Shown piece by piece: positions 6,922-64,000 of a stretch of 64,000 nt of DNA. Below the pieces are notes generated by a model. That model did no database searches. It was not told the origin of the DNA and was given only the letters and a program-made list of their open reading frames with translations. Positions within the stretch are counted from its first letter, which is position 1. Every line of letters starts with the position of its first letter. Origin of the DNA: Diplonema papillatum (lineage: Eukaryota > Euglenozoa > Diplonemea > Diplonemida > Diplonemidae); assembly GCA_030068145.1 (NCBI GenBank), contig JAPJBO010000457.1, forward strand, positions 1 through 64,000, written 5' to 3'. The position numbers were made by a program, and so were the translations under genes.

Positions 6922-7138
6922 TATCATGCAGGGTCATAACCTTGTGTCTTTTTGAAAATGACAAAAAAAAAATTTCCGGAAAAAAATTGGGTTTTTTGAA
7001 TTTTAAAAGTTTGGAACAAACTCTGCAGTAATTTTTGAGGAAGTTGAGCAAATTTTTTTTTTTCCAAAATTTTTTTAGGGCTCCATCGGCCCTGCGGGAG
7101 CGTTTTAAAAAGACACAAGGTTTTGACCCTGCATGATA
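6922..7138. mobile_element. MITE copy 3 (217 bp)
   Basis: Nearly identical to copy 2, same length and same flanking GTCATATA satellite. It is more likely a product of satellite-level duplication than an independent insertion. Confidence 0.85.
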
Positions 7139-9754: not shown

Positions 9755-9867
9755 TTATTTTGCGCCGCCAGCTATTTTCAGTCGGAAAAATAAACGAATT
9801 TATTTCCCTAGGGACAATAAATTTCATTTATTTGTTTCGACTGAAAATAGCAGGCGGCGCAAAATAA
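9755..9867. mobile_element. Foldback element, about 113 bp
   Basis: Outer arms TTATTTTGCGCCGCC and GGCGGCGCAAAATAA, extended inward by CTATTTTCAGTCG and CGACTGAAAATAG, form a long near-perfect hairpin around an A/T-rich core with several AAATAAAC-like motifs. There is no coding capacity. It is a likely MITE relic unrelated to the TATCATGCAGGG family. Confidence 0.65.
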
Positions 9868-37493: not shown

Positions 37494-38386
37494 AAGGCCG
37501 GACTGACCAAGAAAAGAAGCGCGATTGTAGCCGAAAGCTGGCGTTCCGCAACTTCAATCAAACCGAGGGGCTCCCTATCTCGTGAAATGCTTTCAGGATC
37601 CTGACTTGCATTCACACACAGTCTGCAACGGCTTGCAGGCGAGCCAACGTACACACACATGTATCGTAGAAACGCGTTGCATTTGAGCGAGCCTATGCCG
37701 GCTAGTTCTTGTGGACGGCGTGTTTAGATGTTGTTAGATGACCGAAAATAAAAAGAAATCGCGGAAGCGACCGATTCAAACAAATGCAAGCCTGACCCGA
37801 TGCGCCTGCTTTCGCCTTTCGACTCTTCATTTGCGCGTCTATGTAAGATTCCGCGTGCAACGTAGAATCTACGACAGTGAGATGCACCTCAGACCTACCA
37901 TTCACCGCTCCGCGCGTTGTAAGTCAAGCGAGGTCTCCTTATCCCCATCCATCACCTACCAGTGACCACCACAGGGGTCGTTCAAGACCAGTTCTTGAAA
38001 TGTACTGCAGTTCGAGAGCGGGAATGAAATCTTGCGGCAAAACCTTTCAGTTGGAGTCTCGAAGGCTTGGAGACTCCGTTCTCCCTCCTCCCGGACAAAG
38101 CTACTAGCTACTTGTCTACGGACGAAGGTGCGCAGTGCGAAGGTTTGCATGATTGCACATTGCTAGTGCGCACTACCAACCTCGAACTTCTTTCCCCAGA
38201 CCTGTGCGTGCACCTCTTTGAATGAGGCTACTTTGCATACTCCGCTCTTCAGTTCGTGCCAACGAAGTGCACTGTTGCCAGTCTCTATACGATATGGGGC
38301 TTCATGGCGGCGCCCTCTTATCGCTAACACACACCAACCCAAGCAAGCTGCTCAGGTGTACTTTTCGAACAATCCCGCACCGAACC
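37494..38386. other. Intergenic, upstream of giant gene 1
   Basis: Unique sequence, no gene recognised. The last 60 bp resemble the leader of giant gene 2: ACACACACCAACCCAAGCAA here against CACACAGCACCCCAAGCAAG there, each ending in an ACCATGGCTGGCCAGGC start context. Confidence 0.45.
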
Positions 38387-41300
38387 ATGGCTGGCCAGGC
38401 TGCAGGCGACGCTGCATTGGTACTCACCAATGAGCTCCGGGTCGCGCCCCCCGATTTTCAGTTTAGAGATGCGGTCAACCTTCTCAAGCGTTTCTGCCAA
38501 TCGAAGCAGACACAAACAGCGACGAGCTTCAGCTTGGTATCCGCGAGCATGCATCAACCCCTACGAGTCTCTCTCTCAGCGGAGTGTCTACAGCGTGTGG
38601 TCCTGTGGGTGGACCGCGTATTCGAGGTTCTCCCTCGGTTTGCGTGCGCGCTGGTGCGGTCGCCGTCCACATCTGATGAAGTTGACGACGTGGTGAACGT
38701 GGGGGTTTTAGCGCTCGAAGCGTGGACGCATCAAGTACGTTCTTACTTCAACTTGCATGGAACGGAGCGAGCTACTGGCGCCGAGTGCACAAGTTCGATC
38801 ATCCTATCGTGCGGTTCTGTGTCCTCGGAGTTGTTCATAGAGTTCTGCAACGAGTTCCATACTCTTGCAACAGCGACTGAGAACAATGTCATGAAGTTGT
38901 CATTCACACCCGGTGTCGTTGCAGGTCTCGTCGAGCAAGCCATAGAAGTCGTTACGGCGCAAGCAACAGGCAATCCGAAGGTTACCGACGCTTTGAGCCA
39001 AACCAGAACCGGCTTCACCGACGCAAAACATCTCGCCGCCCAGGGGGGAGCCATGGCGTGGGCTTTCGCGCGCGAAGCTGCGCGTCACGCGCTTACCGAA
39101 GAACCTGGCGACTACTTGGTCGCCCAGTCCCGGTCCGATTTGGAGACGGTCCTCTTGCAGGTGGAGATGTGCGCGTGGGTGCTGGAGCGCCATGTGACTG
39201 CGATCGAACTTCAGAAACACTTGGATGTAGCAGATCTAGACGTCGCCGCAGGTCTTCTAAGACGGATAGCTGCAGATTGCAGCGGCCTCTCTTCTCAGGG
39301 CCTCTCCGTCGAGGGCGTGGACGCATGCTGCTTGGGCATAAAAGAGCGCCTCGACAGTCTGCAGTGCCTTCATTGGGATGCGGAGGCTAACGAGTACCAG
39401 CTCCCCGAACTCGTCTCAGTTGCACAGTCGCCCGAGGACCACGTGCGACCTCCAGTCATCCAATTGGCACCACTCGCTGCAGACCGTCCTGCCGTATCGG
39501 TTCGGGACGCGGCAATCGTTGCGCAGCGTTGCAAAAATGTCATGCTCAGTGACGCTACCGATTTTGCAACGCTCAACACATGGAAATCCCGAGTCAGTTT
39601 GTCGCAAGACTCTGAGTTGCTCATCCTTGCCACTGCGGAGCGGGTTTTCTGGTCGAAGTGCACTTCGTGCCTGGAAGCTCGTGGCGCCCTGCCGCTATCT
39701 GAAATAGACGAAATGTCCAGAGCGCAGACGTGGTACCGGAGCGTCTCGCACGGTGTCCTAAGCTGTGAGTCTACCTTCAGCTCCCAGGGCTTGTCCATCG
39801 GTGTGGCATACCTACGCAGCAAGGAGATGCTGGTGGTGTGGGCAGCTGCGTGCCTCACACATTGGGCGTGCGAAACAAACGAAGGACCCTGGAACGGCGG
39901 ACTGGAGCTGTGTCGCCTTCCGATCGCCGCAGAGGAGCTGCAGCACCTTGTGCTGAGGTCAGCAGCTGAGGTCAACGCCATGAAGATGGTGGCGTCATAC
40001 ATCGAAGGGTGTTCACGCCGCACCGGTGGTGGCATCTTTGACAGCCGCACGATTAAGACACTCGCAAACTACGTGGTCAACCGTGACAACGACCTGCGCC
40101 AGTTACGCGAGGCGATCCTTTCCGCCGACCAAACGCGTGTGCAGAGACACTGGGACACGATCAAAGGACGGAAGATGCAGCTTGAAACACTTCGGGCTGA
40201 GCTCGCCGAAGAGGAGTCCAAATCAGACATCTATGACTTCACCCGGTGCACTACTGTAAACAGTCTGCGGCGGCGTATCGCACATCTCGACCGACCTCCG
40301 GCACCAATCTGCATGTGTCTTCCTTCAGAGACATCAGAGGCCAACGTTGTGGTCTTCTTCCTATCGTGTCCCGCCCCGCTGGCACAGTCGTTCTCCCTAC
40401 TATTTGAAGCTCAAGACATGTTATTGCCACGCAAACCAGAGAGTCTGACGACAAGTGGCTTCACTTTGAGTCTGTTCCAGGCTCCCTGCAAAAACAACGG
40501 ATTGCCATGGTCGGATTACGTAAACACCCAAAGAAGTGGGGGGTCCACCGCGACGCGTGATGACGTCTTTCTCTCGTGGTCACGTTCAGACGAACGACCA
40601 CGAAGCTGGGGCCCGTCAACAGTCAGCTTGTACAGCTCCCCGAATGACGGAGTCTGGTGGCCTGATAATTGCTCGAAGAGACTCTGCTGGGTTGAAGGAC
40701 GGGACCCTTTTTTCGGCAGCGCAAAACAACGGATGACAGCAGAAGTATACACGGAAGCTCTTCCAGAAGGGATCTTCAAGCCCCTGCAATGGGCAATGTA
40801 CGTTTCGTCTGGAGATGACAAGGCCAAGGACCTGACGAGATCCAATAAGTGGATCGCTGATCAGACTCGACTACGCCAAGCAAGTGGGTTTGACAAGAAG
40901 GCATTACAGGCGTTCACATGCCTGAGAGCTGGCCCCCGACAGCAGCACCGGCGCGTGTGCGCTCTTCTTCGCGAAGACTCGCTGTGTCTCACGAACAAAG
41001 CTGTCCGCACACTCCTCCGACAGGCGATGCACGCTGTCGGACCATTGACGAGCGACTTGAATCTCGTCTGGCACCTCGATTCGGAGGTGCATGGCCTCCG
41101 CGATGTGCTCATGCGGGTCGTTGCAGAAAAAGTGGATACCTTGCGGGATCTCATGCGGGAAGCAGATGCCGCGTTGATCATTTCGGACCTCTGCTCTTAC
41201 ATAACCGAGTGGGAAGCCGGGCCAGACGCACACAAACTTGCAGAGAGTGCAGAAGAAATGTGCTGGAGCTGGGCTGTTTCTGCACGGAACGACCGAGAAG

Positions 41301-44300
41301 CGATGGAGTCAGCATCTGCAGTTGACAACCGCCAGCTCCATTCGATGCGTTGCAGGGAGGGAGTTTTTGCAGGATACGCAGCGTTGTGCTGTCGCAAGAC
41401 GAAAGACATCACAGCAGAGGAAGCAGGGAGGCTCATTCGGTATCTTGTTCGCCTGAGGCTATCGGCATCATTCGCGGATGGCGATGCTTCGAAGTTGGCC
41501 TCCGTGGATGCGGAGTGTCTTCACAACATGGCTCAGGCAATCCCGCATGTCACACACATCCTTGGGAATCGGCATCTTACAAAGGCACTGAAAGAAGCGT
41601 ACCCAAAAGCCCCGAGTGACCTGACGTGGAAGCATCACGGGACTGTGTTCGTCGCACAGAATCCAGACTCGGGCATTTTGTATGCCATCAACGTCCACAG
41701 CGGTCACGTTCTTGTTGACGGGTTCCCGTTGCACTCGCTGCCGGCTGAGGTACTCCAGTCGATTCTTTACACGCGGACGTTTGGAAACAAAGACTTTGAG
41801 GTCGTGCGCGAGGGAAACTGCTGGCGTACCCCCCGTCCTTACGAAGGGTTCTCGTACGCATTTTCGTTGATGGAAGGGGGAGTGAGCATCGTCGAGACTG
41901 ACGAGAATCTTCAAACGGACCTCGAGCTTGCCGATCCCAACTCGCCGGGATTCGTAGAGATTCCAATACGCTTCCGCGAGATGTGTTCCTTCTGGGTGGC
42001 GCGTGAGGTCCACACAGTCGTCGTTAGAGGAAAATACTACCGGGACAGAGCCATCTGCCTTATAATGACTGGAGTCACCTCTGCCACCGCAACTGTGAAC
42101 ACGGTCCCAAGAGAACGAAGCCTGCAGAGCTGGATTGAGCTCTCCGCAATGAAGCGTGAACTCGGCCGGCTAGTGCTACCACAGTCTGATGTCGTCAGGA
42201 GTCTCGGGAGCCATTTCCTCGGCAGAATCGACGACCCGGCCTTTGTGTACCTTGAGATTGTATACGGGATGAAATCGGAAACGCCCGTACTAAGGTGGTC
42301 TTTGCGACGGCTCGAGATGCAGTTCGAGTTGCGAGAAGACGGATGTATTGTATCATTAGATCGAACAGGTTACAAACTTGCTTCGTGTCAGCAGCTACCA
42401 GAAGTGATCAGTCGCTTCACGAACTACATTGTTCTTGAGCGAAGTGATCCCAGTGCAGAACGAGAGACTGTGCTAATCGTGCCGGATGGCGATGTGAAGC
42501 GAACTCCTTCGGGAACTGCGCACTTGAATCTTCCTCCTGAGGCAACCGCACCGTTGCAATCATTTGCGTACAGTCTACACCCACGCCTCCACGTGCTGCG
42601 AGCGGAGTCCACCAGGAGTAGATTGCACCTGGCCGCGATTCTCGCAGCCAGGGGCACATTGCTTCCAGATGACATCAACGGGAAGTCAGGAGCTCTCGTT
42701 GCACTCGACCTTGTCCGGCAGTGCCTCAGATGGAGTCCGCTGTCTGATCCAGAGCGTGACAAACTGGCCGAAGTGTCGACCTATACAGCGGGGTTCCCCG
42801 TTCTGGGAGTCTCGTGCTCTATCTTGGCGAGAGAGTCGGCGAGACTCAGTGTTCTCTACACTGATGGAGGCCCTACCATCCCCATTCATGACCATTGCGT
42901 GGACGAGTACAAGTTTCAGCTTGCCCGAGGGCTTCAGCGCTGCGGGGTGTCTCGTCTCGAGGAAGAGGAACATTTCATCGGCGCCCGCTTCAAGCTACCC
43001 GTAGTGCATTCAATTTGCAGGGAAGCGGTTATCAATTCTGACGCCGAACAGGCAACTTTTCACTCGGTCAGGGATGCTCTTGAAGACGCCGTCACCATCG
43101 GCAGCTGCAAAAAACGTCGGCAGAAATTTCCTCTGAAAACCTGCTTTGGGGCAGGCGACATCCTGGCCCAACAAGTGCTAAACGAGCTGCAAGATAGCTG
43201 GAAGGCGAATCAGCAAGCCGAATCTGCCAGTCTGACCAAGTCTGTCGCGAGTACTACCGAGCAGCTCTTGCAACTGCAGGAAAAGACAAGCGGCGCCTCT
43301 GCAAAGCTCTTGTGTCACCTGGTCGAAGTATTTGAGTCACAGTTCCTGGCTGTCGACCATCCCTACGAGCAAACCCCTGGCAGCGGCGCGGAGCTGCGCT
43401 TGAAACGCCGAAGCCTGACCGCCCAGTACGCTGCCAACCAGCGTAGCAAGATCTCGCCATCGGAGTTCATTGAACTGCTGTGGAGTGACGCTGTCCTCGA
43501 CGACCTGCTGCCGCTCTTCACGGAACCCGTGAAGAAGGCTTTCCGGAGGGCGGCATTCTTACTTGTGCAGTTGTGGGTCATGGAAGACAAAATCAACCAC
43601 CTCGAGAACTTGTTGTCTGATCCGGACCAAGTTCAGAAGCCGGAAGATCTCTCGTGGAGCATCGTGCAGGAGTTCGCCCGCCGATCGTGGGATGTGAAGA
43701 AGTACCCACGGTGGCTTGGATTTGAAGCTGTGAGCAGGATCCGAATCAGACCGGAACAGGCAAGTCTAGCAGAGACCTTGATTCACGGCAGCCCGGGGGG
43801 CATCATGCAATTAAACATGGGTCTCGGTAAGACTAGAGTTGTCTTGCCTATTGTACTGCTGCATTTGACGCAGGAAAAGGCACAGATGGTGCGTGTCTTT
43901 TTCCTGACACCGCTTCTGCGGGAAGGGCTTGATTTCATGCGTCGCACGCTCACTGCGAGCCTCTTTCGGATCCCAGTTCTCGAGCTGCCATTCGAGAGGA
44001 CCACCCAGGTGAATGCAACGATGTTGCGATCTTACCGCCTGGCCCTCGAAAGGTGTAGAGACCTTCACGGTTTCGTGGCCGTCACGCCGGAGTTTGTGCT
44101 GTCGCTTGCCCTCAAGAAGCGTGAGGCGCAGCTGCAAGGCGGCGATTTGTACAAGGTGTTCAAAAAGAACACTACCATTGACTACCTTTCAATCTTGGAT
44201 GAAAGCGACGCGCTGCTTCACCCGAAGTACGAACTCGTCTACGCGATGGGGGATGCTGCACCGCTTTCATCTGGGCAGAGCAGGTGGGAGGCAGCTCATG

Positions 44301-46924
44301 CCCTTCTCAGAGTTCTCGCATGCCCGTGCGAAGTGCTTCGTGAGGTATTCACCTCACCGGAGGTTGTCAGTGTTGCAACAAGCTTCCCGTCGGCTGCCTT
44401 CCAGCCCATACGGTTTCTGCGAGGAGAGGCTTTCCAGAAGAACAAAACCCGGATTCGCCTTTCCATGGCGGGACAGCTGTGCTCAGAGCCGCCTCACGAA
44501 CTGAGATGGATGGGAAGTCTGCAGAAGAAGCAAAGGGATCAGCTGCTGGAGGCTATTACCGACGGAAACTGCTCCGTCGATAGCAGTTTACTCGAGGGCT
44601 TGTCAGCAGACCCGGTTCACCAGGAGCATGTGTTAGCGTTACGAGGGCTTCTGGCATACGATGTCCTCTTCAGTGCGTTGGAGAAGAGACATCGTGTCGA
44701 CTATGGGGTCGACAAGTCTCGAAAGCCACCCAGGCAGCTGGCCGTGCCGTTTCGAGGAAGTGACATGCCAGCTGCACGCGCAGAGTTTAACCATGCCGAT
44801 TCCGTAGTTGTTCTGACAACATTAAGCTTCTACTATTCGGGCATCACATGGAACCAGCTTGTGAAGGCTATCACCGCACTCCTTGAACTGTCGCTCACGG
44901 CAGCCGAGCTTTACTACCATCGGTGGCTGAAGACAATGAACCAGCAACTCGACGAAGACGAGGTGAAGCGGATCGACAATGTGAGCAAGCTGGATGTTAC
45001 ATCGAACGTGCAGCAAGCGATCCTGGAGAAGGCGTTCTGCTTTTCACCAGAAGCGATCAATTTCTGGCTGGGGGTGTGCGTGTTTCCATCCGAAATATCA
45101 GAGTTTCCCAACCGCTTGAAGCAATCAGCTTGGGACCTCGCAAGTGGGCCCACCATCGGGTTTTCCGGCACGAATGACTTCCACCGAATGCTCCCGCTGA
45201 CGGTCAGGCAGGTGCTTGACAATAAGATGCGTACCTTTGCGACGAATGGACACATGCTTGATGTCATCCTCAAGTCGTCGGAAGTCGTGCTGCTTCCACC
45301 GCCGGGCAAGATGCCACTGTGGGAGAAGGTTCTTGAATGTGCAGTTGCTCAGAGCGAAGGTGGCGTCCGTGCTCTGGTGGACACCGGTGCGTTGCTCTCA
45401 GGGGTATCGAACGAGAACGCGGCGAAGTATCTTAACAAGCACCTGAACGCATCCTTCCTCGCTGTTCTGTACAGCGACTCGCACTGTTGGCAGGTGTTGG
45501 AAAGGAATGGTCGGTGCCTTCCGCTCGGGTCGTCGCCTGTTCACGAGCGTGATTCGTTCGTCATTTTCGACGAGGCACACTGCCGTGGCGCTGACATGCG
45601 GATGCAGCGAACGGCAGTAGGTCTCATCACACTGGGACCGCAACTGTGCAAAGACAAGTTCATGCAAGGTGCCGGCCGCATGCGAGCCCTTGGGGCCGGT
45701 CAGCGTCTTGAGATCCTCGTTGTTGAGGAAATTTCCCACGGCATCAAAGGAAAGAGGAACGCCCTCGCCAGCTCCTCGATGCAGAGCTCGGCAACTTCTG
45801 TCGCACGGGACATCACAGTCAACGACATCCTTCTGTGGCTTGTCCTCAACACGCTTGAAGGCAACCGACTACTACTTCCACATTGGACGGGAAACGGCGC
45901 CCATTTCATTCTCGGCCGTGAAGACGGTGGTGCGCCACTTGAGGATGACGGTCCTCCTCTCGAAACGCTGTACTGCGGAAGATGCTCCGACAAGAAGCTG
46001 ATCGCAGCGGATCAAGAAGCGCGTCTTGCAAAGTTGGAACTGGGAAAGGATCTTTTGAAGAGAGTGGCCATTTGTACCGGGACGGGGACCAACCTCCTCA
46101 CGCAACAGTTGCATGACGAGGAGTGCGAGAGAGAGACAGAACACGAGAGAGAAATAGAGGAAGAGAAGGAAGAGGAGGTGCCTGAGTTGACACCGAACGC
46201 AGAGAAGTGGTGGGATGCATCCCCCCTTCGCTGTGCTCAAGACGTCGACGGTGTGAAGCGGGCCATACTTCCCGGCGTCTATTCACTCGTGGGCATAGTA
46301 TCGACGGCGTTTTCCAGCTCCAAGTTCCTGACCCAGTACATCAACATGTCCACGTCACAGGTGTGGGTCACGAGCAACTTTTTGCATGCTGTGAATGGCA
46401 CGCACATCGATCAGTACCTTCGGCTGGCAGACGCAATACTCGTCGTTCCGACCTACAAAAGCAGCCCCGAATCCGCACTCTTTGTGCTTTCAGACTTTGA
46501 AGCTGAGCGTGTTCTGCAGCTTCTCCATGCACACCCAGGTGCGGCATGCGCGGTCACGTTGGTGAACTGGTGTTTCCTACGCACATCTGAAGGAACGAAA
46601 GCGATTGAACTGGCGACTCAACCTGCACCGGCGCCTCGCACGCACGCGCAGCTAGCCGCCCTGCAGCTGTTTGTAGGGGAGACGAAGTATTGCTGGCGCA
46701 AGCAGGAAACCGGCAGAATGTCTTCCCTCGGGAAGCTTCTTCGTCCGAACTGCACGAAGGCAGTACTCGAGCTTCTGCGCATGCGCCAAACGCAGGCGCA
46801 GTATGATATGTCGGATCTTCAGTCTGTGATCGAGCAGTTGAACATTGCACACGCAAGAGACAATTCGGAAGAAGCTTCGCAGTCGCATACCGCCAGGCAA
46901 CGTGTCTCGATGCCGGTACCCTAG
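38387..46924 (+). CDS. Giant DUF3638/DUF3645 protein, copy 1 (2845 aa)
   Basis: Intronless gene for a very large P-loop protein. I start it at the Kozak-like ACCATGG (38387); the frame is open 55 codons further up, but the paralogue aligns from this Met. The first about 1750 residues are unfamiliar, with a helical Lys/Glu/Arg segment near 565-610. The DUF3638 region follows: MQLNMGLGKTRVVLPIV with Walker A GLGKT (1812-1816), VAVTPEFVLSL near 1896, and ILDESDALLHPKYELVYAMG (Asp1938-Asp1941). Further on comes the DUF3645 core, FDEAHCRGADMRMQRTAVGL (Asp2395-His2398), TLGPQLCKDKFMQGAGRMRA. An acidic Glu/Arg stretch lies near 2580-2600. These modules occur together in huge fungal, oomycete and protist proteins of unknown role that databases group loosely with ubiquitin thioesterases; I see no OTU-type catalytic Cys motif. 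No signal peptide or obvious membrane anchors. The final about 15 residues differ wholly from copy 2. Confidence 0.85.
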   Translation: MAGQAAGDAALVLTNELRVAPPDFQFRDAVNLLKRFCQSKQTQTATSFSLVSASMHQPLRVSLSAECLQRVVLWVDRVFEVLPRFACALVRSPSTSDEVDDVVNVGVLALEAWTHQVRSYFNLHGTERATGAECTSSIILSCGSVSSELFIEFCNEFHTLATATENNVMKLSFTPGVVAGLVEQAIEVVTAQATGNPKVTDALSQTRTGFTDAKHLAAQGGAMAWAFAREAARHALTEEPGDYLVAQSRSDLETVLLQVEMCAWVLERHVTAIELQKHLDVADLDVAAGLLRRIAADCSGLSSQGLSVEGVDACCLGIKERLDSLQCLHWDAEANEYQLPELVSVAQSPEDHVRPPVIQLAPLAADRPAVSVRDAAIVAQRCKNVMLSDATDFATLNTWKSRVSLSQDSELLILATAERVFWSKCTSCLEARGALPLSEIDEMSRAQTWYRSVSHGVLSCESTFSSQGLSIGVAYLRSKEMLVVWAAACLTHWACETNEGPWNGGLELCRLPIAAEELQHLVLRSAAEVNAMKMVASYIEGCSRRTGGGIFDSRTIKTLANYVVNRDNDLRQLREAILSADQTRVQRHWDTIKGRKMQLETLRAELAEEESKSDIYDFTRCTTVNSLRRRIAHLDRPPAPICMCLPSETSEANVVVFFLSCPAPLAQSFSLLFEAQDMLLPRKPESLTTSGFTLSLFQAPCKNNGLPWSDYVNTQRSGGSTATRDDVFLSWSRSDERPRSWGPSTVSLYSSPNDGVWWPDNCSKRLCWVEGRDPFFGSAKQRMTAEVYTEALPEGIFKPLQWAMYVSSGDDKAKDLTRSNKWIADQTRLRQASGFDKKALQAFTCLRAGPRQQHRRVCALLREDSLCLTNKAVRTLLRQAMHAVGPLTSDLNLVWHLDSEVHGLRDVLMRVVAEKVDTLRDLMREADAALIISDLCSYITEWEAGPDAHKLAESAEEMCWSWAVSARNDREAMESASAVDNRQLHSMRCREGVFAGYAALCCRKTKDITAEEAGRLIRYLVRLRLSASFADGDASKLASVDAECLHNMAQAIPHVTHILGNRHLTKALKEAYPKAPSDLTWKHHGTVFVAQNPDSGILYAINVHSGHVLVDGFPLHSLPAEVLQSILYTRTFGNKDFEVVREGNCWRTPRPYEGFSYAFSLMEGGVSIVETDENLQTDLELADPNSPGFVEIPIRFREMCSFWVAREVHTVVVRGKYYRDRAICLIMTGVTSATATVNTVPRERSLQSWIELSAMKRELGRLVLPQSDVVRSLGSHFLGRIDDPAFVYLEIVYGMKSETPVLRWSLRRLEMQFELREDGCIVSLDRTGYKLASCQQLPEVISRFTNYIVLERSDPSAERETVLIVPDGDVKRTPSGTAHLNLPPEATAPLQSFAYSLHPRLHVLRAESTRSRLHLAAILAARGTLLPDDINGKSGALVALDLVRQCLRWSPLSDPERDKLAEVSTYTAGFPVLGVSCSILARESARLSVLYTDGGPTIPIHDHCVDEYKFQLARGLQRCGVSRLEEEEHFIGARFKLPVVHSICREAVINSDAEQATFHSVRDALEDAVTIGSCKKRRQKFPLKTCFGAGDILAQQVLNELQDSWKANQQAESASLTKSVASTTEQLLQLQEKTSGASAKLLCHLVEVFESQFLAVDHPYEQTPGSGAELRLKRRSLTAQYAANQRSKISPSEFIELLWSDAVLDDLLPLFTEPVKKAFRRAAFLLVQLWVMEDKINHLENLLSDPDQVQKPEDLSWSIVQEFARRSWDVKKYPRWLGFEAVSRIRIRPEQASLAETLIHGSPGGIMQLNMGLGKTRVVLPIVLLHLTQEKAQMVRVFFLTPLLREGLDFMRRTLTASLFRIPVLELPFERTTQVNATMLRSYRLALERCRDLHGFVAVTPEFVLSLALKKREAQLQGGDLYKVFKKNTTIDYLSILDESDALLHPKYELVYAMGDAAPLSSGQSRWEAAHALLRVLACPCEVLREVFTSPEVVSVATSFPSAAFQPIRFLRGEAFQKNKTRIRLSMAGQLCSEPPHELRWMGSLQKKQRDQLLEAITDGNCSVDSSLLEGLSADPVHQEHVLALRGLLAYDVLFSALEKRHRVDYGVDKSRKPPRQLAVPFRGSDMPAARAEFNHADSVVVLTTLSFYYSGITWNQLVKAITALLELSLTAAELYYHRWLKTMNQQLDEDEVKRIDNVSKLDVTSNVQQAILEKAFCFSPEAINFWLGVCVFPSEISEFPNRLKQSAWDLASGPTIGFSGTNDFHRMLPLTVRQVLDNKMRTFATNGHMLDVILKSSEVVLLPPPGKMPLWEKVLECAVAQSEGGVRALVDTGALLSGVSNENAAKYLNKHLNASFLAVLYSDSHCWQVLERNGRCLPLGSSPVHERDSFVIFDEAHCRGADMRMQRTAVGLITLGPQLCKDKFMQGAGRMRALGAGQRLEILVVEEISHGIKGKRNALASSSMQSSATSVARDITVNDILLWLVLNTLEGNRLLLPHWTGNGAHFILGREDGGAPLEDDGPPLETLYCGRCSDKKLIAADQEARLAKLELGKDLLKRVAICTGTGTNLLTQQLHDEECERETEHEREIEEEKEEEVPELTPNAEKWWDASPLRCAQDVDGVKRAILPGVYSLVGIVSTAFSSSKFLTQYINMSTSQVWVTSNFLHAVNGTHIDQYLRLADAILVVPTYKSSPESALFVLSDFEAERVLQLLHAHPGAACAVTLVNWCFLRTSEGTKAIELATQPAPAPRTHAQLAALQLFVGETKYCWRKQETGRMSSLGKLLRPNCTKAVLELLRMRQTQAQYDMSDLQSVIEQLNIAHARDNSEEASQSHTARQRVSMPVP

Positions 46925-47040
46925 CAGTATTCTGGTTGACATCAGTCCCAATACTTGCAGTACCACCATGCGGTTACGTAATCGACATGCCAAGAAGCAC
47001 CACTCATTTTACCAACCCCGGGTAGTTATTGGTTGTGCAA
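46880..47040. repeat. Dispersed repeat forming the end of giant gene 1
   Basis: From about CAACGTGTCTCGATGCCGGT (46898) through CCACCATGCGGTT (about 46964), the sequence resembles the inverse of 59345-59475 (CACCGGCACCGAGACACGCT, CAACCGTATGGTGG). The homology starts where copy 1 departs from copy 2, which suggests the last codons and 3' flank of copy 1 came from this repeat. Confidence 0.45.
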
Positions 47041-49780: not shown

Positions 49781-52700
49781 ATGGCTGGCCAGGCTGCAGG
49801 CGACGCCGCATTGCTACTCGCCAATGAGCTCCGGGCCGCGCCTCCCGAATTCGAGTTTGAAGATGCGGTCAACCTTCTGAAGCGTTTCTGCCAGGCGAAG
49901 CAGGCGCAAGCCGCCAGGAGCTTCAGTTTGGTATCCGCGAGCGCGCATCAACCCCTACGAATCTCTCTCTCATCAGAGTGTCTGCAGCGTGTGGTCCTGT
50001 GGGCGGACCGCGTGTTCGAGGTTCTCCCTCGCTTTGCGTGCGCGCTGGTGCGGTCGCCCGTGTCCCCATTTGATGGAGCCGACGACGTGGTGACCGTAGA
50101 GGTTTTGGCGCTCGAAGCATGGACGCATCAAGTGCGCTCTTACTTCGTCGAGGATGGAACGGAGCGGGTTACTGGCGCCGAGTGCACGGGTTCGATCGTC
50201 CTATCGTGCGGTTCTATGGCCTCGGAGGTGTTCGCGGAGTTCTGCACCGAGTTTCATAAGCTTCTTGCAGCGGCGACTACGAAGATGAAGTTGCCTTTCA
50301 CCCCTGGTGTCGTTGCAGGGGTCGTCAAGCAAGCCGTACGAGTCGTTACAGAGCGGGCGGCAGGCGACCCCGAGGCCTCCGAACCCGCTTTTATCCACGC
50401 CCGAACCGGCTTCACCGACGCGAAGCACCTGGCCGCCCAGGAGGGCGCCATGGCGCGGGCTTTCCTGCGCGAGGTTGCGCGCCACGCGCTTACCGAAGAG
50501 CCCGGCGACTTCTCGGTCGCCCAGTCCCGGTCCGATTTGGGGACGGGGCTCTTGCAGGTGGAGATGTGCGCGTGGGTGCTGGAGCGCCACGTCGCTGAAA
50601 TCGAACTCGAGGAGCAAGTTGATGTCGCAGATCTCGACGTCGCCGCAGGTCTTCTAAGACGGATAGCTGCAGATTGCAGCGGCCTCTCTTCTCAGGGCCT
50701 CTCCGTCGAGGGCGTGGACGCATGCTGCTTGAGCATAAAAGAGCGTCTCGACAGTCTGCAGCGCCTTCATTGGGATGAGGAGGCTAACGAGTACCAGCTC
50801 CCCGAGCTCGTCTCAGTTGCACAGTCACCCGAGGACCACGTGCGACCTCCAGCCGTTCAACTGACACCACTGTCCGAAGAGTGTCCCGCGGTATCTGTTC
50901 GGAACACGGCAATCGTTGCGCAGCGTTGCGATAACGTCCCCTTGCTCAGCGACGCTGCCGATTTTGCAACGCTCAACGCGTTCAAGTCCCTATTCCCTCT
51001 GTCGAAAGACTCCGAGTTGCTCATCCTTGCCGCTGTGGAGCGGGTCTTCTGGTCGAAGTGCACTTCGTGCCTCGAAGCTCGCGGCGCCCTGCCGCTATCT
51101 GAGATAGATGAAATGTCCAGAGCGCAGACGTGGTACCGCAGCGTCTTGCACGGTGTCCTAAGCTGCGAGTCAACCTTCAGCTCCCGAGCGTTGTCCATCG
51201 GTGTGGCATACCTACGCAGCAAGGAGATGCTGGTGGTGTGGGCAGCTGCGTGCCTGACGCATCGGGCGTGCGAGGCAAACACCGGACCCTGGAACGGCGG
51301 GCTGGAGCTGTTTCGCCTTCCGATCGCCGCAAAGGAGCTCCAGTACCTTGTGCTGAGGTCAGCAGCTGAGGTCGACGCCATGAAGACGGTGGCGTCGTAC
51401 CTCGAACGGTGTTCATGCCGCACCGGCGGTGCTATCTTTGACAGCAGCGCACTTAAGACACTCGCAACCGGCGTGGTCAAGCGTCATGCCGGACTGCGCC
51501 AGTTATGCCAGGCGATCCGTGCCGCTGACGACTCGCGTGTGCAGAGACGCTGGGACGCTGTCCAGGAACAGAAGAGGCAACTTGAACTGCTTCGAGCCGA
51601 GCTCGCCGAAAAGGAGTGCGAAGCAAACTCCTTCCACAAGTTCCAAAAAGCTGCTCGCCGCCTGGAGAAAAGCATCGCAGAAACGAGGAGGCGCATCGCA
51701 GACCAAGACGTACCCCCGGCACCCGTCTACATGAGTCTTCCTTCAAAGGACGCGGAGGCCAACGTTGTGGTCCTATTCCTATCGTGTCCCGCCCCGCTGG
51801 CACAGTTGTTTTCGCTGCTCTTTGAAGCTCAAGACATGTTGCTGCCGCGCGAGCCGAAGAGTCCGACGACAAACGCGTTCTCTTTGGGTGTGTTCGAGGC
51901 ACCCTGCGGAAACAACGGCACGACGTGGGTGGATTACGTGAACTCCCACAGAGCGAGGTCAGCGCACACCGGCCACGTTTATCTCTCGTGGTCACGTTCG
52001 GACCAGCGACCACGAAGATGGGGCCCGTCAACCGTCAGTTGGTACACCTCAAAGGATGACGGTGTGTGGTGGCCGGACGAGTGCTCGAAGAGACTCTGCT
52101 GGGTTCAAGGACGGGACCCTTTTTTCGGCAGCGCAAAAGAGCGGATGACAGCAGAAGTATACACGGAAGCTCTTCCGCAAGGGATCTTCAAGCCCCTGCA
52201 ATGGGCAATGTACGTTTCGACCAGTGATGAGCTGGACCTGACGAGATCCAATAAGTGGATCGCTGACCAGGCTAGACTACGCCAAGTAAGTGGGTTTGAC
52301 AAGAAGGCATTGCAGGCGTTCACATGCCTGAGAGCTGGCCCCCGACAGCAGCACCGGCGCGTGTGCTCTCTTCTTCGCGAAGACCTGCTGTGTCTCACGA
52401 ACAAAGCTGTCCGCACACTCCTCCGACAGGCGATGCACAACGTCGGACCAGTGACGAGAAAATATCAAGATCTCGTCTGGCACTTCGATTCGGAGTTGCA
52501 CGGCCTCCGCGATGTGCTCATGCGGGTCGTTGCAGAAAAAGTGGATACCTTGCGGGATCTCATGCGGGAAGCAGATTCCGCGTTGATCATTTCGGACCTC
52601 TGCTCTTACATAACCGAGTGGGAAGCCGGGGACGACGCGCAAGAGCTTGCAGAGAGCGCGGAAGAAATGTGCTGGAGCTGGGCTGTTTCCGCACGGAACG

Positions 52701-55700
52701 ACCGAGAAGCGATGGAGTCAGCATCTGCAGTTGACAACCGCCAGCATCGATCCATGCGTTGCAGGGAGGGAGTTTTTGCAGGATACGCGGTGTTATGCTG
52801 TCGTAAGACGAAAGACATCACAGCAGAGGAAGCAGGGCGGCTTCTTCGATATCTCGTTCGCCTGAGGCTATCGGCATCATTCGCGGATGGCGATGCTTCG
52901 AAGTTGGCCTCCGTGGATGCGGAGTGTCTTCACAACATGGCTCAGGCAATCCCGCATGTCACACACATCCTTGGGAATCAGCATCTTACAGAGGCACTAC
53001 AAGAAGCGTACCCAAAAGTCCCGAGTGACCTGACGTGGAAGCGTCACGGTACTGTGTTCATCGCGCAAAATCCAGACTCGGGCGTTTTGTATGCCATCAA
53101 CGTCCACAACGGGCACGTTCTTGTTGACGGGTTCCCGTTGCACTCGCTGCCGGCTGAGGTACTCCAGTCGAGTCTTTACGAGTGGACGTTTGGAAACAAA
53201 GACTTTGAGGTCGTGCGCGAGGGAAACTGCTGGCGTACACCCCGTCCTCACGAAGGGTTCTCGTACGCATTTTCGTTGAAGGAAGAGGGGGGAGTGAGCA
53301 TCGTCGAGACTGACGAGAATCTTCAAACGGATCTCGAGCTTGCCGATCCCAACTCGTCTGCATTTTCAGAGATTCCAATACGCTTCCGCGAGATGTGTTC
53401 CTTCTGGGTGGCGCGTGAGGCCGAGACAGTCGTCGTTAGAGGAAAATACTACCGGGACAGAGCCATCTGCCTTATAATGACTGGAGTCACCTCTGCCACC
53501 GCAACTGTGAACACGGTCCCAAGAGAACGAAGCCTGCAGAGCTGGATTGAACTCTCCGCAATGAAGCGTGATCTCGGCCGACTGATGCTACCACAGTCTG
53601 ATGTCGTCAGAAGTATTGGGAGCCATTTCTTCGGCAGAATTGACGACCCGGCCTTTGTGTACCTTGAGATTTTACCTGGGACGAAATCGAACACGCCTGT
53701 ACTGAGGTGGTCGTTGCAACGACTCGAGATGCAGTTCGAGTTGCGAGAAGACGGATGTATCGTCTCATTAGATCGAACAGGTTACAAACTTGCTTCGTGT
53801 CAGCAGCTACCAGAGGTGATTAGTCGCTTCACGAACTACATTGTTCTTGAGCGAAGTGATCCCAGTGCAGAACGAGAGACTGTGCTAATCGTACCGGATT
53901 GTGATGTTGAGCGCACTCCTTCAGGAACCGCGCACTTAAATCTTCCTCTTGAGGCAACTGCACCGCTGAAATCATTTGCGTACAGTCTACACCCACGCCT
54001 CCACGTGCTGCGAGCGGAGTCAACCAAGAGTAGATTGCACCTGGCCGCGATTCTCGCAGCCAGGGGCACATTGCTTCCAGATGACATCAACGGGAAGTCA
54101 GGAGCTCTCGTTGCACTCGACCTTGTCCGGCAGTGCCTCAGATGGAGTCCGCTGTCTGACCCGGAGCTTGATAAGCTGGCCGACGTGGCGCTCTACACAG
54201 CCGGGTTCCCCGTTCTGGGAGTCTCGTGTTCTATCTTGGCGAGAGAGTCAGCGAGACTCAGTGTTCTCTACCCTGATGAGGACGCCACCAACCTCATGCT
54301 CGACGATTGCGTGGACGAGTACAAAATACAGCTCGCCCGAGGGCTTCAGCGCTGCGGGGTGTCTCGTCTTGAGGAAGAGGAACATTTTGTCGGCGCCCGG
54401 TTCAAGCTGCCAATGGTCCATTTAGTTCGCAGGGATGCCGTCATCGATTTTGACGCCGAACAGGAAATCTTTCACTCGGTCACGGATGCTCTCGAAAAAG
54501 CCGTCACCATCCGTAAAGGTAGCGCCGACGGGGTCGTCGGCGACAGCCTTCCTCTGCATAATGCAGGAAAGTTCTTTCGGAAGAGCGATTCGTTAGCCCA
54601 GCAAGTGCTAGGCGAGCTGCAAGACAGCTGGAAGGCGAATCTGCAAGCCGAAGCTGCCAGTCTGACCAAGTCTGTCGCGAGTACCACCGAGCAGCTCTTG
54701 AAACTGCAGGAAAAGACAAGCGCCGCCTCTGCAAAGCTCTTGTGTCACCTGGTCGAAGTCTTCGAGTCACAGTTCCTGGCCGTCGACCATCCCGACGAGC
54801 AAGCCCCTGGCAGCGGCGCGGAGCTGCGCTTGACGCGCCGAAGCCTGACCGCCCAGTACGCCGCCAACCAGCGTAGCAAGATCTCGCCATCGGAGTTCAT
54901 CGAACTGCTGTGGAGTGACGCTGTCCTCGACGACCTGCTGCCGCTCTTCACGGAACCCGTGAAGAAGGCTTTCCGGAGGGCGGCATTCTTACTCGTGCAG
55001 TTGTGGGTCATGGAAGACAAAATCAACTACCTCGAGAACTTGTTGTCCGACCCGGAACAAGTTCAAAACCCGGAAGATCTCTCGTGGAGCATCGCGCAGG
55101 AGTTCGCCCGCCGATCGTGGGATGTGGAGATATACCCACGGTGGCTTGGATTTGAAGCTGTGAGCAGGATTCGGATCAGACCGGAACAGGCAAGGTTAGC
55201 GAAGACCTTGATTCACGGCAGCCCGGGGGGCATCATGCAGTTGAACATGGGTCTTGGGAAGACTAGAGTTGTCTTGCCTATTGTACTGCTGCATTTGACA
55301 CAGGAAAAGGTACGGATGGTGCGTGTCTTTTTCCTGACACCGCTTCTGCGGGAAGGGCTTGATTTCATGCGTCGCACGCTCACTGCGAGCCTCTTTCGGA
55401 TCCCAGTTCTCGAGCTGCCATTCGAGAGGACCACCCAGGTGGATGCAACGATGTTGCGATCTTACCGCCTGGCCCTCGAAAGGTGTAGAGACCTTCACGG
55501 TTTCGTGGCCGTCACGCCGGAGTTTGTGCTGTCGCTCGCCCTCAAGAAGCGTGAAGCGCAGCTGCAAGGCGGCGATTTGTACAGGGCGTTCGAAAAACAT
55601 ACGACCATTGACTACCTTTCAATCCTGGATGAAAGTGACGCGCTGCTTCACCCGAAGTACGAACTCGTCTACGCGATGGGGGATGCTGCACCGCTTTCAT

Positions 55701-58387
55701 CTGGGCAGAGCAGGTGGGAGGCAGCTCATGCGCTTCTCAGAGTTCTCGCATGCCCGTGCGAAGTGCTTCGTGAGGTCTTTGCCTCACCGGAAGTTGTCAG
55801 TCTGACAACAAGCTTCCCGTCGGCTTCCTTCCAGCCCATACGGTTTCTGCGAGGAGAGGCTTTCCAGAAGAACAAAGCTCGTATTCGCCTTTCCATGGCG
55901 GAACAGCTGTGCTCAGAGCCGCCTCACGAACTGAGATGGATGGGAAGTCTGCAGAAGAAGCAAAGGGATCAGCTGCTGAAGGCTATTACCGACGGAAACT
56001 GCACCGTCGATAGTAGTTTACTCGAGGGCTTGTCAGCAGACCCGGTTCACCAGGAGCACGTGTTATCGTTACGAGGGCTTCTGGCATACGATGTCCTCTT
56101 CAGTGCGTTGGAGAAGAGACATCGTGTCGACTATGGGGTCGACAAGTCTCGAAAGCCACCCAGGCAGCTGGCCGTGCCGTTTCGAGGAAGTGACATGCCA
56201 GCTGCACGCGCAGAGTTTAGCCATGCTGACTCCGTAGTTGTTCTGACAACATTAAGCTTCTACTATTCGGGCATCACATGGAACCAGCTTGTGCAGGCTA
56301 TCACCGCACTCCTTGAGCTTTCACTTACGTCAGCCGAGCTTTACTACCATCGGTGGCTGGTGACAATGAACCAGCAACTCGACGAAGACGAGGTGACGCG
56401 GATTGACAATGTGAGCAAGCTGGATGTTACATCGAACGTGCAGCAAGCGATCCTGGAGAAGGCGTTCTGCTTTTCACCAGAAGCCATCAACTTCTGGCTG
56501 GGGGTGTGCGTGTTTCCATCCGAAATATCAGAGTTTCCGAACCGCTTGAAGCAATCAGCTTGGGACCTCGCAAGTGGGCCCACAATCGGGTTTTCTGGCA
56601 CGAATGACTTCCACCGAATGCTCCCGCTGACGGTCAGGCAGGTGCTTGACGATAAGATTCGCACCTTTGCGACGAATGGACACATGCTTGATGTCATCCT
56701 CAAGTCGTCGGAAGTCGTGCTGCTTCCACCGCCGGGCAAGATGCCACTGTGGGAGAAGGTTCTTGAATGTGCTGTCGCTCAGAGCGAAGGTGGCGTTCGC
56801 GCTCTGGTGGACACCGGTGCGTTGCTCTCAGGGGTATCGAACGAGAACGCGGCGAAGTATCTTAACAAGCACCTGAACGCATCCTTCCTCGCTGTTCTGT
56901 ACAGCGACTCGCACTGTTGGCAGGTGTTGGAAAGGAATGGTCGGTGCCTTCCGCTCGGGTCGTCGCCTGTTCACGAGCGTGATTCGTTCGTCATTTTCGA
57001 CGAGGCACACTGCCGTGGCGCTGACATGCGGATGCAGCGAACGGCAGTAGGTCTCATCACACTCGGACCACAACTGTGCAAAGACAAGTTCATGCAAGGT
57101 GCCGGCCGCATGCGAGCCCTTGGGGCCGGTCAGCGTCTTGAGATCCTCGTTGTTGAGGAAATTGCCCACGGTATCAACGGAAAGAGGAACGCCCTCACCA
57201 CAACCTCCTGGATGCAGAGCTCGGCAACTTCTGTCGCACAGGACATCACAGTCAACGACATCCTCCTATGGCTTGTCCTCAACACGCTTGAAGGCAACCG
57301 ACTACTACTTCCACATTGGACGGGAAACGGCGCCCATTTCGTTCTCGGCCGTGAAGACGGTGGTGCGCCGCTTGAGGATGACGGTCCTCCTCTCGATACG
57401 CTGTACTGCGGAAGATGCTCCGACAAGAAGCTACTCGAAGCGGATCAAGAAGCGCGCCTTGCAAAGTTGGAGCTGGGTGAGGATCTTTTGAAGAGAGTAG
57501 CCATTTGTGAGACCGGGAGCAACTTCCTCGTGCAGTCGCATGACGAGGAGTGCGAAAGAGAGACGGAGCACGAGAGGGAAACTGAGGAAGAGAAGGAAGA
57601 GGAGGTGCCTAAGTTGACACCGAGCGCCGAGAAGTGGTGGGATGCGTCTCCCCTTGTCTCTGCTCAAGACGTTGACGATGTCAAGCGGGCCATACTTCCC
57701 GGCGTCTATTCACTCGCGGACGTTGTATCAGACATGTTTTCCAGCTCCAAGGTCCTTTCCCAGTACATCAACATGCCCACGTCACAGGTGTGGGTCACGA
57801 GCAACTTTTTGCATGCTGTGGATGGAACGCACATCGATCAGTACCTTCGGCTGGCAGACGCAATACTCGTCGTTCCGACCTGCAAGGACAGCCCCGACTC
57901 TGCGCTCTTTGTGCTTTCAGAGTTTGAAGCTGAGCGTGTTCTGCAGCTTCTTCACGCACACCCAGGTGCGGCATGCGCGGTCACGTTGGTGAACTGGTGT
58001 TTCCTACGCACATCTGAAGGAACGAAAGCGATTGAACTGGCGACTCAACCTGCACCGGCGCCTCGCACGCACGCGCAGCTAGCCGCCCTGCAGCTTTTTG
58101 GAGGGGAGACGAAGTATTGCTGGCGCAAGCAGGAAGCCGACAGAATGTCTTCCCTTGGACAGCTTCTTCGACCGGACTCCAAGAGGGCCGTACTCGAGCT
58201 TCTGCGCATGCGCCAGACGCAGGCGCAGTATGATATGTCGGATCTTCAGTCTGTGATCGAGCAGTTGAACATCACGCATGCAAGAGACAACCCGGAAGAA
58301 GTTGCACCGCCCGCCGAGAATTGGCACGGTATCACCTTGTCTGCTGCCCGCTCCGTCTGGAGTTCTTTATACAGATCATCACGCTGA
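49781..58387 (+). CDS. Giant DUF3638/DUF3645 protein, copy 2 (2868 aa)
   Basis: Tandem paralogue of copy 1, same strand, intronless, starting at ACCATGGCTGGCCAGGC (49781). Same architecture: unfamiliar N-terminal about 1760 residues; Walker A GLGKT at 1824-1828; DESD at 1950-1953; DEAH at 2407-2410; TLGPQLCKDKFMQGAGRMRA; acidic Glu-rich stretch before the C-terminal about 250 residues. Most residues match copy 1, but divergence is uneven. It is strong in the linker near residues 600-640 (an inserted KFQKAARRLEKS helix) and near 1500-1620, and very low, including at silent sites, around the DUF3645 core. The C-terminus (PPAENWHGITLSAARSVWSS) is probably the ancestral tail, since copy 1's tail coincides with a repeat. 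A helicase-like or ATP-driven remodelling role is inference; no function is established. Confidence 0.85.
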   Translation: MAGQAAGDAALLLANELRAAPPEFEFEDAVNLLKRFCQAKQAQAARSFSLVSASAHQPLRISLSSECLQRVVLWADRVFEVLPRFACALVRSPVSPFDGADDVVTVEVLALEAWTHQVRSYFVEDGTERVTGAECTGSIVLSCGSMASEVFAEFCTEFHKLLAAATTKMKLPFTPGVVAGVVKQAVRVVTERAAGDPEASEPAFIHARTGFTDAKHLAAQEGAMARAFLREVARHALTEEPGDFSVAQSRSDLGTGLLQVEMCAWVLERHVAEIELEEQVDVADLDVAAGLLRRIAADCSGLSSQGLSVEGVDACCLSIKERLDSLQRLHWDEEANEYQLPELVSVAQSPEDHVRPPAVQLTPLSEECPAVSVRNTAIVAQRCDNVPLLSDAADFATLNAFKSLFPLSKDSELLILAAVERVFWSKCTSCLEARGALPLSEIDEMSRAQTWYRSVLHGVLSCESTFSSRALSIGVAYLRSKEMLVVWAAACLTHRACEANTGPWNGGLELFRLPIAAKELQYLVLRSAAEVDAMKTVASYLERCSCRTGGAIFDSSALKTLATGVVKRHAGLRQLCQAIRAADDSRVQRRWDAVQEQKRQLELLRAELAEKECEANSFHKFQKAARRLEKSIAETRRRIADQDVPPAPVYMSLPSKDAEANVVVLFLSCPAPLAQLFSLLFEAQDMLLPREPKSPTTNAFSLGVFEAPCGNNGTTWVDYVNSHRARSAHTGHVYLSWSRSDQRPRRWGPSTVSWYTSKDDGVWWPDECSKRLCWVQGRDPFFGSAKERMTAEVYTEALPQGIFKPLQWAMYVSTSDELDLTRSNKWIADQARLRQVSGFDKKALQAFTCLRAGPRQQHRRVCSLLREDLLCLTNKAVRTLLRQAMHNVGPVTRKYQDLVWHFDSELHGLRDVLMRVVAEKVDTLRDLMREADSALIISDLCSYITEWEAGDDAQELAESAEEMCWSWAVSARNDREAMESASAVDNRQHRSMRCREGVFAGYAVLCCRKTKDITAEEAGRLLRYLVRLRLSASFADGDASKLASVDAECLHNMAQAIPHVTHILGNQHLTEALQEAYPKVPSDLTWKRHGTVFIAQNPDSGVLYAINVHNGHVLVDGFPLHSLPAEVLQSSLYEWTFGNKDFEVVREGNCWRTPRPHEGFSYAFSLKEEGGVSIVETDENLQTDLELADPNSSAFSEIPIRFREMCSFWVAREAETVVVRGKYYRDRAICLIMTGVTSATATVNTVPRERSLQSWIELSAMKRDLGRLMLPQSDVVRSIGSHFFGRIDDPAFVYLEILPGTKSNTPVLRWSLQRLEMQFELREDGCIVSLDRTGYKLASCQQLPEVISRFTNYIVLERSDPSAERETVLIVPDCDVERTPSGTAHLNLPLEATAPLKSFAYSLHPRLHVLRAESTKSRLHLAAILAARGTLLPDDINGKSGALVALDLVRQCLRWSPLSDPELDKLADVALYTAGFPVLGVSCSILARESARLSVLYPDEDATNLMLDDCVDEYKIQLARGLQRCGVSRLEEEEHFVGARFKLPMVHLVRRDAVIDFDAEQEIFHSVTDALEKAVTIRKGSADGVVGDSLPLHNAGKFFRKSDSLAQQVLGELQDSWKANLQAEAASLTKSVASTTEQLLKLQEKTSAASAKLLCHLVEVFESQFLAVDHPDEQAPGSGAELRLTRRSLTAQYAANQRSKISPSEFIELLWSDAVLDDLLPLFTEPVKKAFRRAAFLLVQLWVMEDKINYLENLLSDPEQVQNPEDLSWSIAQEFARRSWDVEIYPRWLGFEAVSRIRIRPEQARLAKTLIHGSPGGIMQLNMGLGKTRVVLPIVLLHLTQEKVRMVRVFFLTPLLREGLDFMRRTLTASLFRIPVLELPFERTTQVDATMLRSYRLALERCRDLHGFVAVTPEFVLSLALKKREAQLQGGDLYRAFEKHTTIDYLSILDESDALLHPKYELVYAMGDAAPLSSGQSRWEAAHALLRVLACPCEVLREVFASPEVVSLTTSFPSASFQPIRFLRGEAFQKNKARIRLSMAEQLCSEPPHELRWMGSLQKKQRDQLLKAITDGNCTVDSSLLEGLSADPVHQEHVLSLRGLLAYDVLFSALEKRHRVDYGVDKSRKPPRQLAVPFRGSDMPAARAEFSHADSVVVLTTLSFYYSGITWNQLVQAITALLELSLTSAELYYHRWLVTMNQQLDEDEVTRIDNVSKLDVTSNVQQAILEKAFCFSPEAINFWLGVCVFPSEISEFPNRLKQSAWDLASGPTIGFSGTNDFHRMLPLTVRQVLDDKIRTFATNGHMLDVILKSSEVVLLPPPGKMPLWEKVLECAVAQSEGGVRALVDTGALLSGVSNENAAKYLNKHLNASFLAVLYSDSHCWQVLERNGRCLPLGSSPVHERDSFVIFDEAHCRGADMRMQRTAVGLITLGPQLCKDKFMQGAGRMRALGAGQRLEILVVEEIAHGINGKRNALTTTSWMQSSATSVAQDITVNDILLWLVLNTLEGNRLLLPHWTGNGAHFVLGREDGGAPLEDDGPPLDTLYCGRCSDKKLLEADQEARLAKLELGEDLLKRVAICETGSNFLVQSHDEECERETEHERETEEEKEEEVPKLTPSAEKWWDASPLVSAQDVDDVKRAILPGVYSLADVVSDMFSSSKVLSQYINMPTSQVWVTSNFLHAVDGTHIDQYLRLADAILVVPTCKDSPDSALFVLSEFEAERVLQLLHAHPGAACAVTLVNWCFLRTSEGTKAIELATQPAPAPRTHAQLAALQLFGGETKYCWRKQEADRMSSLGQLLRPDSKRAVLELLRMRQTQAQYDMSDLQSVIEQLNITHARDNPEEVAPPAENWHGITLSAARSVWSSLYRSSR

Positions 58388-63700: not shown

Positions 63701-64000
63701 CGATTCCAGAGACCCGTCATCCTCATGCGATCTAGTTGGCTCTAAAAATTGACGCCTCGATGGGTGCCAGTTCCCTGTACTACCTTCCTATATATTATTT
63801 ACCGATCCTAGTAGTTAAAAGAGCACCCGACATCCAAACCCAGGTCCCGGGTGGTGCGCGGGTGGGAGCCACGCATAGGGAACCACCTTATTCTGAGGCG
63901 ATGGCCGACGACGTTGCGGTCTCCGTGAGCCCGGCGTCGTGCAGCTGGAACAGTGCCGACGTGGCGGCGGTCTCGCCGCTGGGTGCCGTGGCGTACGCGT
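60793..64000 (+). repeat. Tandem first-exon cassettes, possibly of a WD40 (Elp2-like) gene
   Basis: Units of about 345-500 bp begin near 60793, 61305, 61670, 62047, 62527, 63248 and 63746. Each has a leader (TTGACGCCTCGATGTGTG, TAGTTGAGAGAGCACACGAC, GGTCCCGGGTGG-like) and then a coding start. ATGs are at 61131, 61475, 61850, 62216, 62690, 63404 and 63901; a copy near 62921 has lost its ATG. The frame reads MADDVAVSVSPASCSWNSAD, then VAAVSPLGAVAYAS. Downstream another frame continues QVAPRRPLVLPAHVKCLTLF in the 3' units. That order of strands recalls the first WD40 blade of Elongator subunit Elp2, but the match is weak. Most units are truncated or frameshifted. The window ends inside a unit, so the full gene may lie beyond. 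Confidence 0.5.
60948..61112. mobile_element. Dispersed short element inserted in cassette 1
   Basis: TTTTTAGTACTAACAATCTT through GGGAAAACGATCACC and CACGCACAAACAAAA matches 31639-31800 closely over about 160 bp. It separates the leader of cassette 1 (ending AGAGGGCCACC) from its coding part (TTTTTTGAGGCGATGGCC), so it is an insertion. No coding capacity; target duplication not resolved. Confidence 0.6.

Follow-up and report, generated by a model that had tools for sequence, protein, structure and literature searches.

A tandem pair of giant DUF3638/DUF3645 genes in Diplonema papillatum with a putative SF2-type motor and uneven divergence

What do two giant genes lying side by side in the genome of Diplonema papillatum encode, and why have they diverged so unevenly? 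The window, i.e., the whole stretch of DNA analysed here, comprises 64,000 nt (contig JAPJBO010000457.1 of assembly GCA_030068145.1, positions 1 to 64,000). It carries two giant open reading frames head to tail on the forward strand, A (38222-46924, 2900 aa) and B (49490-58387, 2965 aa), which align with 90.2% nucleotide identity across 8614 positions (38327-46874 against 49714-58301). The homology begins about 60 nt 5' of a MAGQAAG methionine common to both, and hence the start codons are likely those at 38387 and 49778. From these positions both frames were uninterrupted up to their stop codons, while each of the other two forward frames contained 73 to 99 stops; the codon use of A and B was correlated at 0.97. 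Our results thus agree with a preliminary description of this DNA that had proposed two head-to-tail intronless giant genes: A and B align over 8.6 kb, and they are intronless as far as the sequence alone shows. The two genes are as follows.

38387-46924, forward strand: gene A, DUF3638/DUF3645 giant (ORF, homology limits and Pfam; frame open from 38222).
49778-58387, forward strand: gene B, tandem paralogue of A (ORF, homology limits and Pfam; frame open from 49490).

The pair would have arisen when a single giant gene of the DUF3638/DUF3645 type was duplicated in tandem. The 3' flanks of A and B were weakly similar and collinear (48143-48274 with 59637-59751, and 48898-48955 with 60524-60577), which makes a repeat unit of roughly 11.4 kb likely. 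The first of these matches scored 42, whereas none of 30 shuffles exceeded 19; four control stretches scored 15.5 to 19, and the shuffle of one control reached 24.5.

48143-48274, forward strand: 3' flank piece of A, like 59637-59751 (flank comparison, shuffles).
59637-59751, forward strand: 3' flank piece of B, like 48143-48274 (flank comparison, shuffles).

The flank element may be partly dispersed, because a 20 nt match to it was also seen at 35289. Upstream of the genes, more than about 60 nt before the ATG, only short matches of at most 27 nt were found between A and B, and for this reason their promoters probably differ. A haplotype or assembly artefact was considered as the source of the pair and judged unlikely, since both copies are on one contig and their upstream DNA differs. 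Two further observations concern the same flanks. An inverted short similarity of 82 bp (69.5%) links 46894-46975, at the 3' end of A, with 59394-59469 in the 3' flank of B. Between the two genes, a eukaryotic 28S rRNA fragment was found on the reverse strand at 47813-47868 (RF02543, 50.1 and 43.7 bits); by eye, the similarity seems to continue toward about 47715. This fragment covers a conserved stretch that is the target of R2 retroelements.

The family assignment in the preliminary description proved correct. Both domains exceeded their curated Pfam cut-offs in both proteins, namely DUF3638 (PF12340; cut-off 31) with E 1.2e-49 and 169.1 bits in A and E 8.7e-49 and 166.3 bits in B, and DUF3645 (PF12359; cut-off 25) with E 7.4e-10 and 38.4 bits in A and E 2.6e-11 and 43.1 bits in B.

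43682-44323, forward strand: DUF3638 of A, putative first RecA lobe (Pfam, residues 1821-2034).
55112-55753, forward strand: DUF3638 of B, putative first RecA lobe (Pfam, residues 1875-2088).
44711-44818, forward strand: DUF3645 of A, in the insert between DESD and SGTND (Pfam, residues 2164-2199).
56141-56248, forward strand: DUF3645 of B, in the insert between DESD and SGTND (Pfam, residues 2218-2253).

However, the stretch 45480-45700, which had been called DUF3645, is not that domain; it is the region of the DEAH, RGAD and QGAGRMR motifs and starts about 660 nt past DUF3645. A and B share with the known family the order DUF3638 then DUF3645, and no departure from the family was found; what they present within it is two copies in tandem, unevenly diverged. 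They are new members of an already known family. In the portions available of earlier reports, a lineage-specific gene with both domains was described in Aspergillus oryzae (PMC6237848), nine DUF3638 genes were among the expanded families of Hypomyces perniciosus (PMC6627653), and microsporidia were credited with a large gene family (PMC5423893). In Tetrahymena, two newly found genes of this kind were reported, and the excerpt available states that the authors regard the mechanism as undefined (PMC12615304). A literature search on DUF3638/DUF3645, PF12340 and helicase or SecA terms returned no function paper among the matches listed, as judged from the partial texts. The tandem pair fits a recurrent lineage-specific expansion of the family.

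Searches for relatives used strict patterns and thresholds. Among viral contigs no relatives of A and B were found, and tblastn of an 805-residue motor stretch against plasmids and phages gave no match. A pattern scan of genome contigs gave two loci, and translation showed both to be chance matches, one in a GyrB-like frame and the other in a short frame without any relation. NCBIfam and PADLOC profiles did not match A or B, whereas the PHROGs profiles matched each protein once and weakly (E 0.092 and 0.035). With such strict settings, an absence of relatives from the scanned contigs, plasmids and phages is not shown.

The reported Walker A (GLGKT), the DESD box and the DEAH-like box about 450 residues further on were all present in A and B. 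Each occurred once per protein at matching places, with 457 residues from DESD to DEAH in both. GLGKT and DESD belong to a longer chain, GLGKT-DESD-SGTND-RGAD-QGAGRMR, whose gaps are 126, 322, 140 and 27 residues in A and B.

43820-43834 (A) and 55250-55264 (B), forward strand: Walker A GLGKT (sole G.GK[ST] in each protein).
44198-44209 (A) and 55628-55639 (B), forward strand: DESD box (motif search).
45161-45178 (A) and 56591-56608 (B), forward strand: FSGTND, candidate SF2 motif III (motif order only).
45569-45595 (A) and 56999-57025 (B), forward strand: DEAHCRGAD, candidate SF2 motif V (motif order only).
45665-45685 (A) and 57095-57115 (B), forward strand: QGAGRMR, candidate SF2 motif VI (motif order only).

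The chain was absent from all 5000 shuffles each of A and B. Of the 20 E. coli proteins that served as controls, SecA and RhlE alone carried it, with 0 of 12 non-SF2 proteins matching and 6 of 8 SF2 proteins missed, the pattern having been picked after the sequences were seen and the SF2 status of the eight being our own classification; because of this outcome the pattern is specific but insensitive. In RhlE, the last chain element is presumably not a true motif VI.

In profile comparisons, the DUF3638 fragments gave sub-threshold Pfam matches to ResIII (E 0.020 and 0.033; best 15.3 bits, cut-off 22.5) and DEAD (E 0.040 and 0.053; best 14.1 bits, cut-off 26), the DEAD matches spanning Walker A to DESD. 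Furthermore, the first-lobe segment aligned in register with the Walker A of SecA, and none of 200 column shuffles scored as high. Less favourably, its score against the DEAD profile was reached by 1 of 100 shuffles. Fragments of the second-lobe region of A and B gave no Pfam match. When the A/B motor was compared with SecA and DEAD profiles by hhalign, the probability was 5.03 at most; the SecA part of the comparison used 10 of 11 sequences, one that has no Walker A being left out, and an hhalign comparison of the A/B core with 20 single E. coli proteins was uninformative. Because the profiles back the Walker A stretch only, an SF2-type motor is likely, a SecA-like class is a lead, and A and B were not placed within SecA itself. 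Hence A and B likely contain a putative SF2-type ATPase motor with one ATP site, and the motifs suggest a candidate second RecA lobe.

The DEAH box bears directly on the number of ATP sites. It stands where it had been described, about 450 residues past DESD, but a role as a second Walker B is less favoured than membership of motif V. Each protein has a sole G.GK[ST], and on this ground the box is probably part of SF2 motif V (FVIFDEAHC-RGAD) rather than of a second ATP site, though the question is not closed. In the opposite reading, the DEAH at 45569/56999 is a separate second acidic, Walker B-like box, and the second half of the motor would not form a RecA2 lobe containing motifs V and VI. 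Local hhalign matches did place FVIFDEAH on the Walker B of HrpA, RecG, UvrB, DeaD and SecA, but these matches were short and weak, with scores equalled by 2 of 200 and by 3 and 5 of 100 shuffles. When the DEAH residues were masked, 95 of 200 shuffles reached the SecA alignment score of the second-lobe segment. No second Walker A was present in A or B, RGAD directly adjoins DEAH and QGAGR follows 27 residues later, all of which make a separate acidic box unlikely.

Which known motor do A and B resemble most in layout? SecA has the same motif classes in the same order (GxGKT, DExD, [ST]GT.D, RG[TA]D, Q..GR). In the available part of one account its preprotein domain is flanked on either side by a part of NBD1 (PMC7137807), and the anatomy and SF2 homology of SecA are likewise described in the accessible text of another (PMC10465204). 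DUF3645 of A and B occupies the place corresponding to the preprotein domain. However, the insert between the second and third motifs has 322 residues in A and B, 182 in E. coli SecA and 31 in RhlE; the fourth and fifth motifs are 61 residues apart in SecA and 27 in A and B; and the last motif is Q..GR.R in A and B but Q..GR.GR in SecA. A and B gave no significant profile match to SecA beyond the Walker A stretch, and Pfam scans found no SecA family at E up to 0.5 with the whole proteins or up to 10 with fragments. From helicases of the DEAD-box/ResIII type, which the first lobe matches below threshold, A and B differ by the long insert after motif II. One could go further and propose that the DUF3638/DUF3645 giants are a eukaryotic SecA-type branch in which the DUF3645 insert grips a polypeptide or nucleic acid and tandem pairs combine a conversion-uniform motor with a diversifying recognition part. 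We consider this quite unlikely; if it were true, the motor would be held uniform while recognition diversifies in the manner of an arms race or of specialisation for clients.

Some databases label DUF3638 proteins as ubiquitinyl hydrolase. On this label A and B could be read as deubiquitinases. However, Pfam found no peptidase family in either the full-length proteins or nine fragments of them, and the OTU deubiquitinase cysteine peptidase domain was likewise not found in either set. Furthermore, none of the matches listed in the literature search ties the label to DUF3638, and we regard a deubiquitinase as very improbable.

Structural databases gave no convincing PDB relative of A and B by sequence. 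With the B protein at E up to 1, only five chains were returned, all of them prolyl 4-hydroxylase alpha (about 55 residues, best E 0.063). A two-sequence motor profile ranked the same five prolyl 4-hydroxylase alpha chains first (best E 0.0053), and the next entries were three chains of retron PtuA with E about 0.96. Another three stretches of B, when compared with the PDB, had no match. The prolyl 4-hydroxylase alpha match corresponds to 56318-56476, within the insert of gene B. The matched domain binds peptides. We read the match as probable chance among helical repeats.

The second question is that of uneven divergence, which was computed on 2818 aligned codons of A and B and gave dS 0.183 and dN 0.075 overall. 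By residues of A, the regions were as follows.

Residues 56-850: dS 0.300 (0.250-0.351), dN/dS 0.48.
Residues 851-1600: dS 0.152, dN/dS 0.36.
Residues 1601-1820: dS 0.211, dN/dS 0.49.
Residues 1821-2040 (DUF3638): dS 0.113, dN/dS 0.21.
Residues 2041-2270 (DUF3645 insert): dS 0.095, dN/dS 0.31.
Residues 2271-2500 (putative second lobe): dS 0.075, dN/dS 0.05.
Residues 2501-2880: dS 0.168, dN/dS 0.38.

The putative motor region was the least diverged part of A and B (residues 1821-2500 pooled: dS 0.094, dN/dS 0.20). Uneven silent divergence had been claimed earlier, and every test rejected uniformity: 75-codon blocks of silent-capable codons (chi2 79.5, df 30, 0 of 2000 permutations), a five-region test (p 3e-7), and fourfold sites in blocks of 20, 30, 50 and 100 (3, 0, 1 and 5 of 2000 permutations, respectively). 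A scan placed the best low tract at residues 1711-2586 of A, a 2.6 kb stretch reached in 0 of 1000 permutations, with silent differences at 52 of 800 eligible codons against 204 of 1552 elsewhere (256 of 2352 overall).

43352-45979 (A) and about 54782-57412 (B), forward strand: low silent-divergence tract over the putative motor, candidate conversion tract (permutations).

The patch singled out previously, 45480-45700 against 56910-57130, is indeed nearly identical at silent sites (220 of 222 nt identical, silent changes in 2 of 69 eligible codons, zero amino-acid changes). However, it is not statistically special, since a fourfold window as low (2 of 41) was present in 1000 of 1000 permutations; the significant tract is far longer. 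The longest silent-identical run had 84 codons (residues 2384-2470 of A; reached by 64 of 5000 permutations), and the longest fourfold-identical run had 67 sites (residues 850-1000 of A; reached by 79 of 5000).

Gene conversion had been offered as the explanation of the silent-site pattern. The uneven silent sites and the long low tract speak for it, but the named patch alone is not unusual, and judged from two sequences conversion over the motor tract of about 2.6 kb is favoured but unproven. Silent and amino-acid divergence covaried (Spearman 0.59, 37 windows), which is the pattern expected from gene conversion. Silent changes were also more frequent in codons at most two positions away from an amino-acid change (137 of 743) than in the other codons (119 of 1609). 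A two-state fit gave a likelihood ratio of 44, whereas 100 simulations did not exceed 7, and it switched about every 8 codons. These last two results indicate that long conversion tracts alone are an insufficient explanation. It is possible, though we doubt it, that there was no conversion and that a duplication of a single age has slow silent sites in the motor, under codon, RNA or translational constraint, and fast ones in the N-terminal part. The low tract does coincide with the most constrained region of the protein (dN/dS 0.05-0.31), and silent changes near amino-acid changes could come from multi-base changes or common local rates. However, the regional silent difference persisted when codons near amino-acid changes were removed (p 2.5e-5), and fourfold divergence was not correlated with GC4 (Spearman -0.14, p 0.42). 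An unlikely alternative takes the dS of 0.300 at residues 56-850 as the odd value, against 0.152, 0.211, 0.094 and 0.168 in the other regions, which would then date the duplication. In this reading, a third and more divergent copy would have recombined with the N-terminal part of one of the two genes or taken its place. No third copy was found within the window, and the low tract is significant by itself. From two sequences, conversion, slow silent sites and N-terminal replacement are indistinguishable.

Taken together, we favour a tandem-duplicated pair of single-site SF2-type motors, kept alike in the motor partly by conversion, as the whole explanation, with a probability of roughly 0.55. 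The first RecA lobe would be DUF3638, with GLGKT and DESD; the insert, some 320 residues long and including DUF3645, may grip the substrate, like the preprotein domain of SecA; the second lobe would bear SGTND, RGAD and QGAGRMR; and the N-terminal residues, about 1800 in number, would select a substrate or partner. Binding and hydrolysis of ATP would close and open the two lobes, so that a bound polymer or complex is moved or remodelled. Purifying selection, probably together with gene conversion over about 2.6 kb, would keep the motor alike in A and B, and meanwhile their N-terminal parts and upstream DNA differ. The likeliest outcome would be two motors of the same chemistry with diverging clients or expression. 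Fungi, microsporidia and ciliates all have members of the family, whose length may extend to some 2900 residues, as A and B show; a motor model that specifies particular residues makes the family testable. With a uniform motor joined to a drifting N-terminal part, the pair would provide a natural system in which chemistry can be distinguished from client recognition.

The rest of the window showed further features. By its content the window looks eukaryotic, with the LSU rRNA fragment described above, RNase H domains of retroelements, a SCAI gene and a SET-domain frame. The SET-domain frame lies at 10945-11715 and by eye runs on across a GT...AG intron at about 11707-11799; introns are thus probably present in this genome, even if A and B seem to lack them. 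An inverted repeat at 9755-9867 (about 113 bp, 89.7% self-complementary) drew matches to plant microRNA precursors, which were sub-threshold and probably due to the hairpin alone. Tandem arrays flank the gene pair, one immediately before gene A at 35328-37491 (period about 560-580 bp), and two mutually related ones downstream of gene B at 61143-62282 (366 bp units) and 62825-64000 (497 bp units). Two retroelement copies with RNase H domains (1870-3311 and 7690-9133) were 95.7% alike, and long arrays of an 11-bp unit (CATATAGGGGT) at 808-1041 and 6377-7694 adjoin them.
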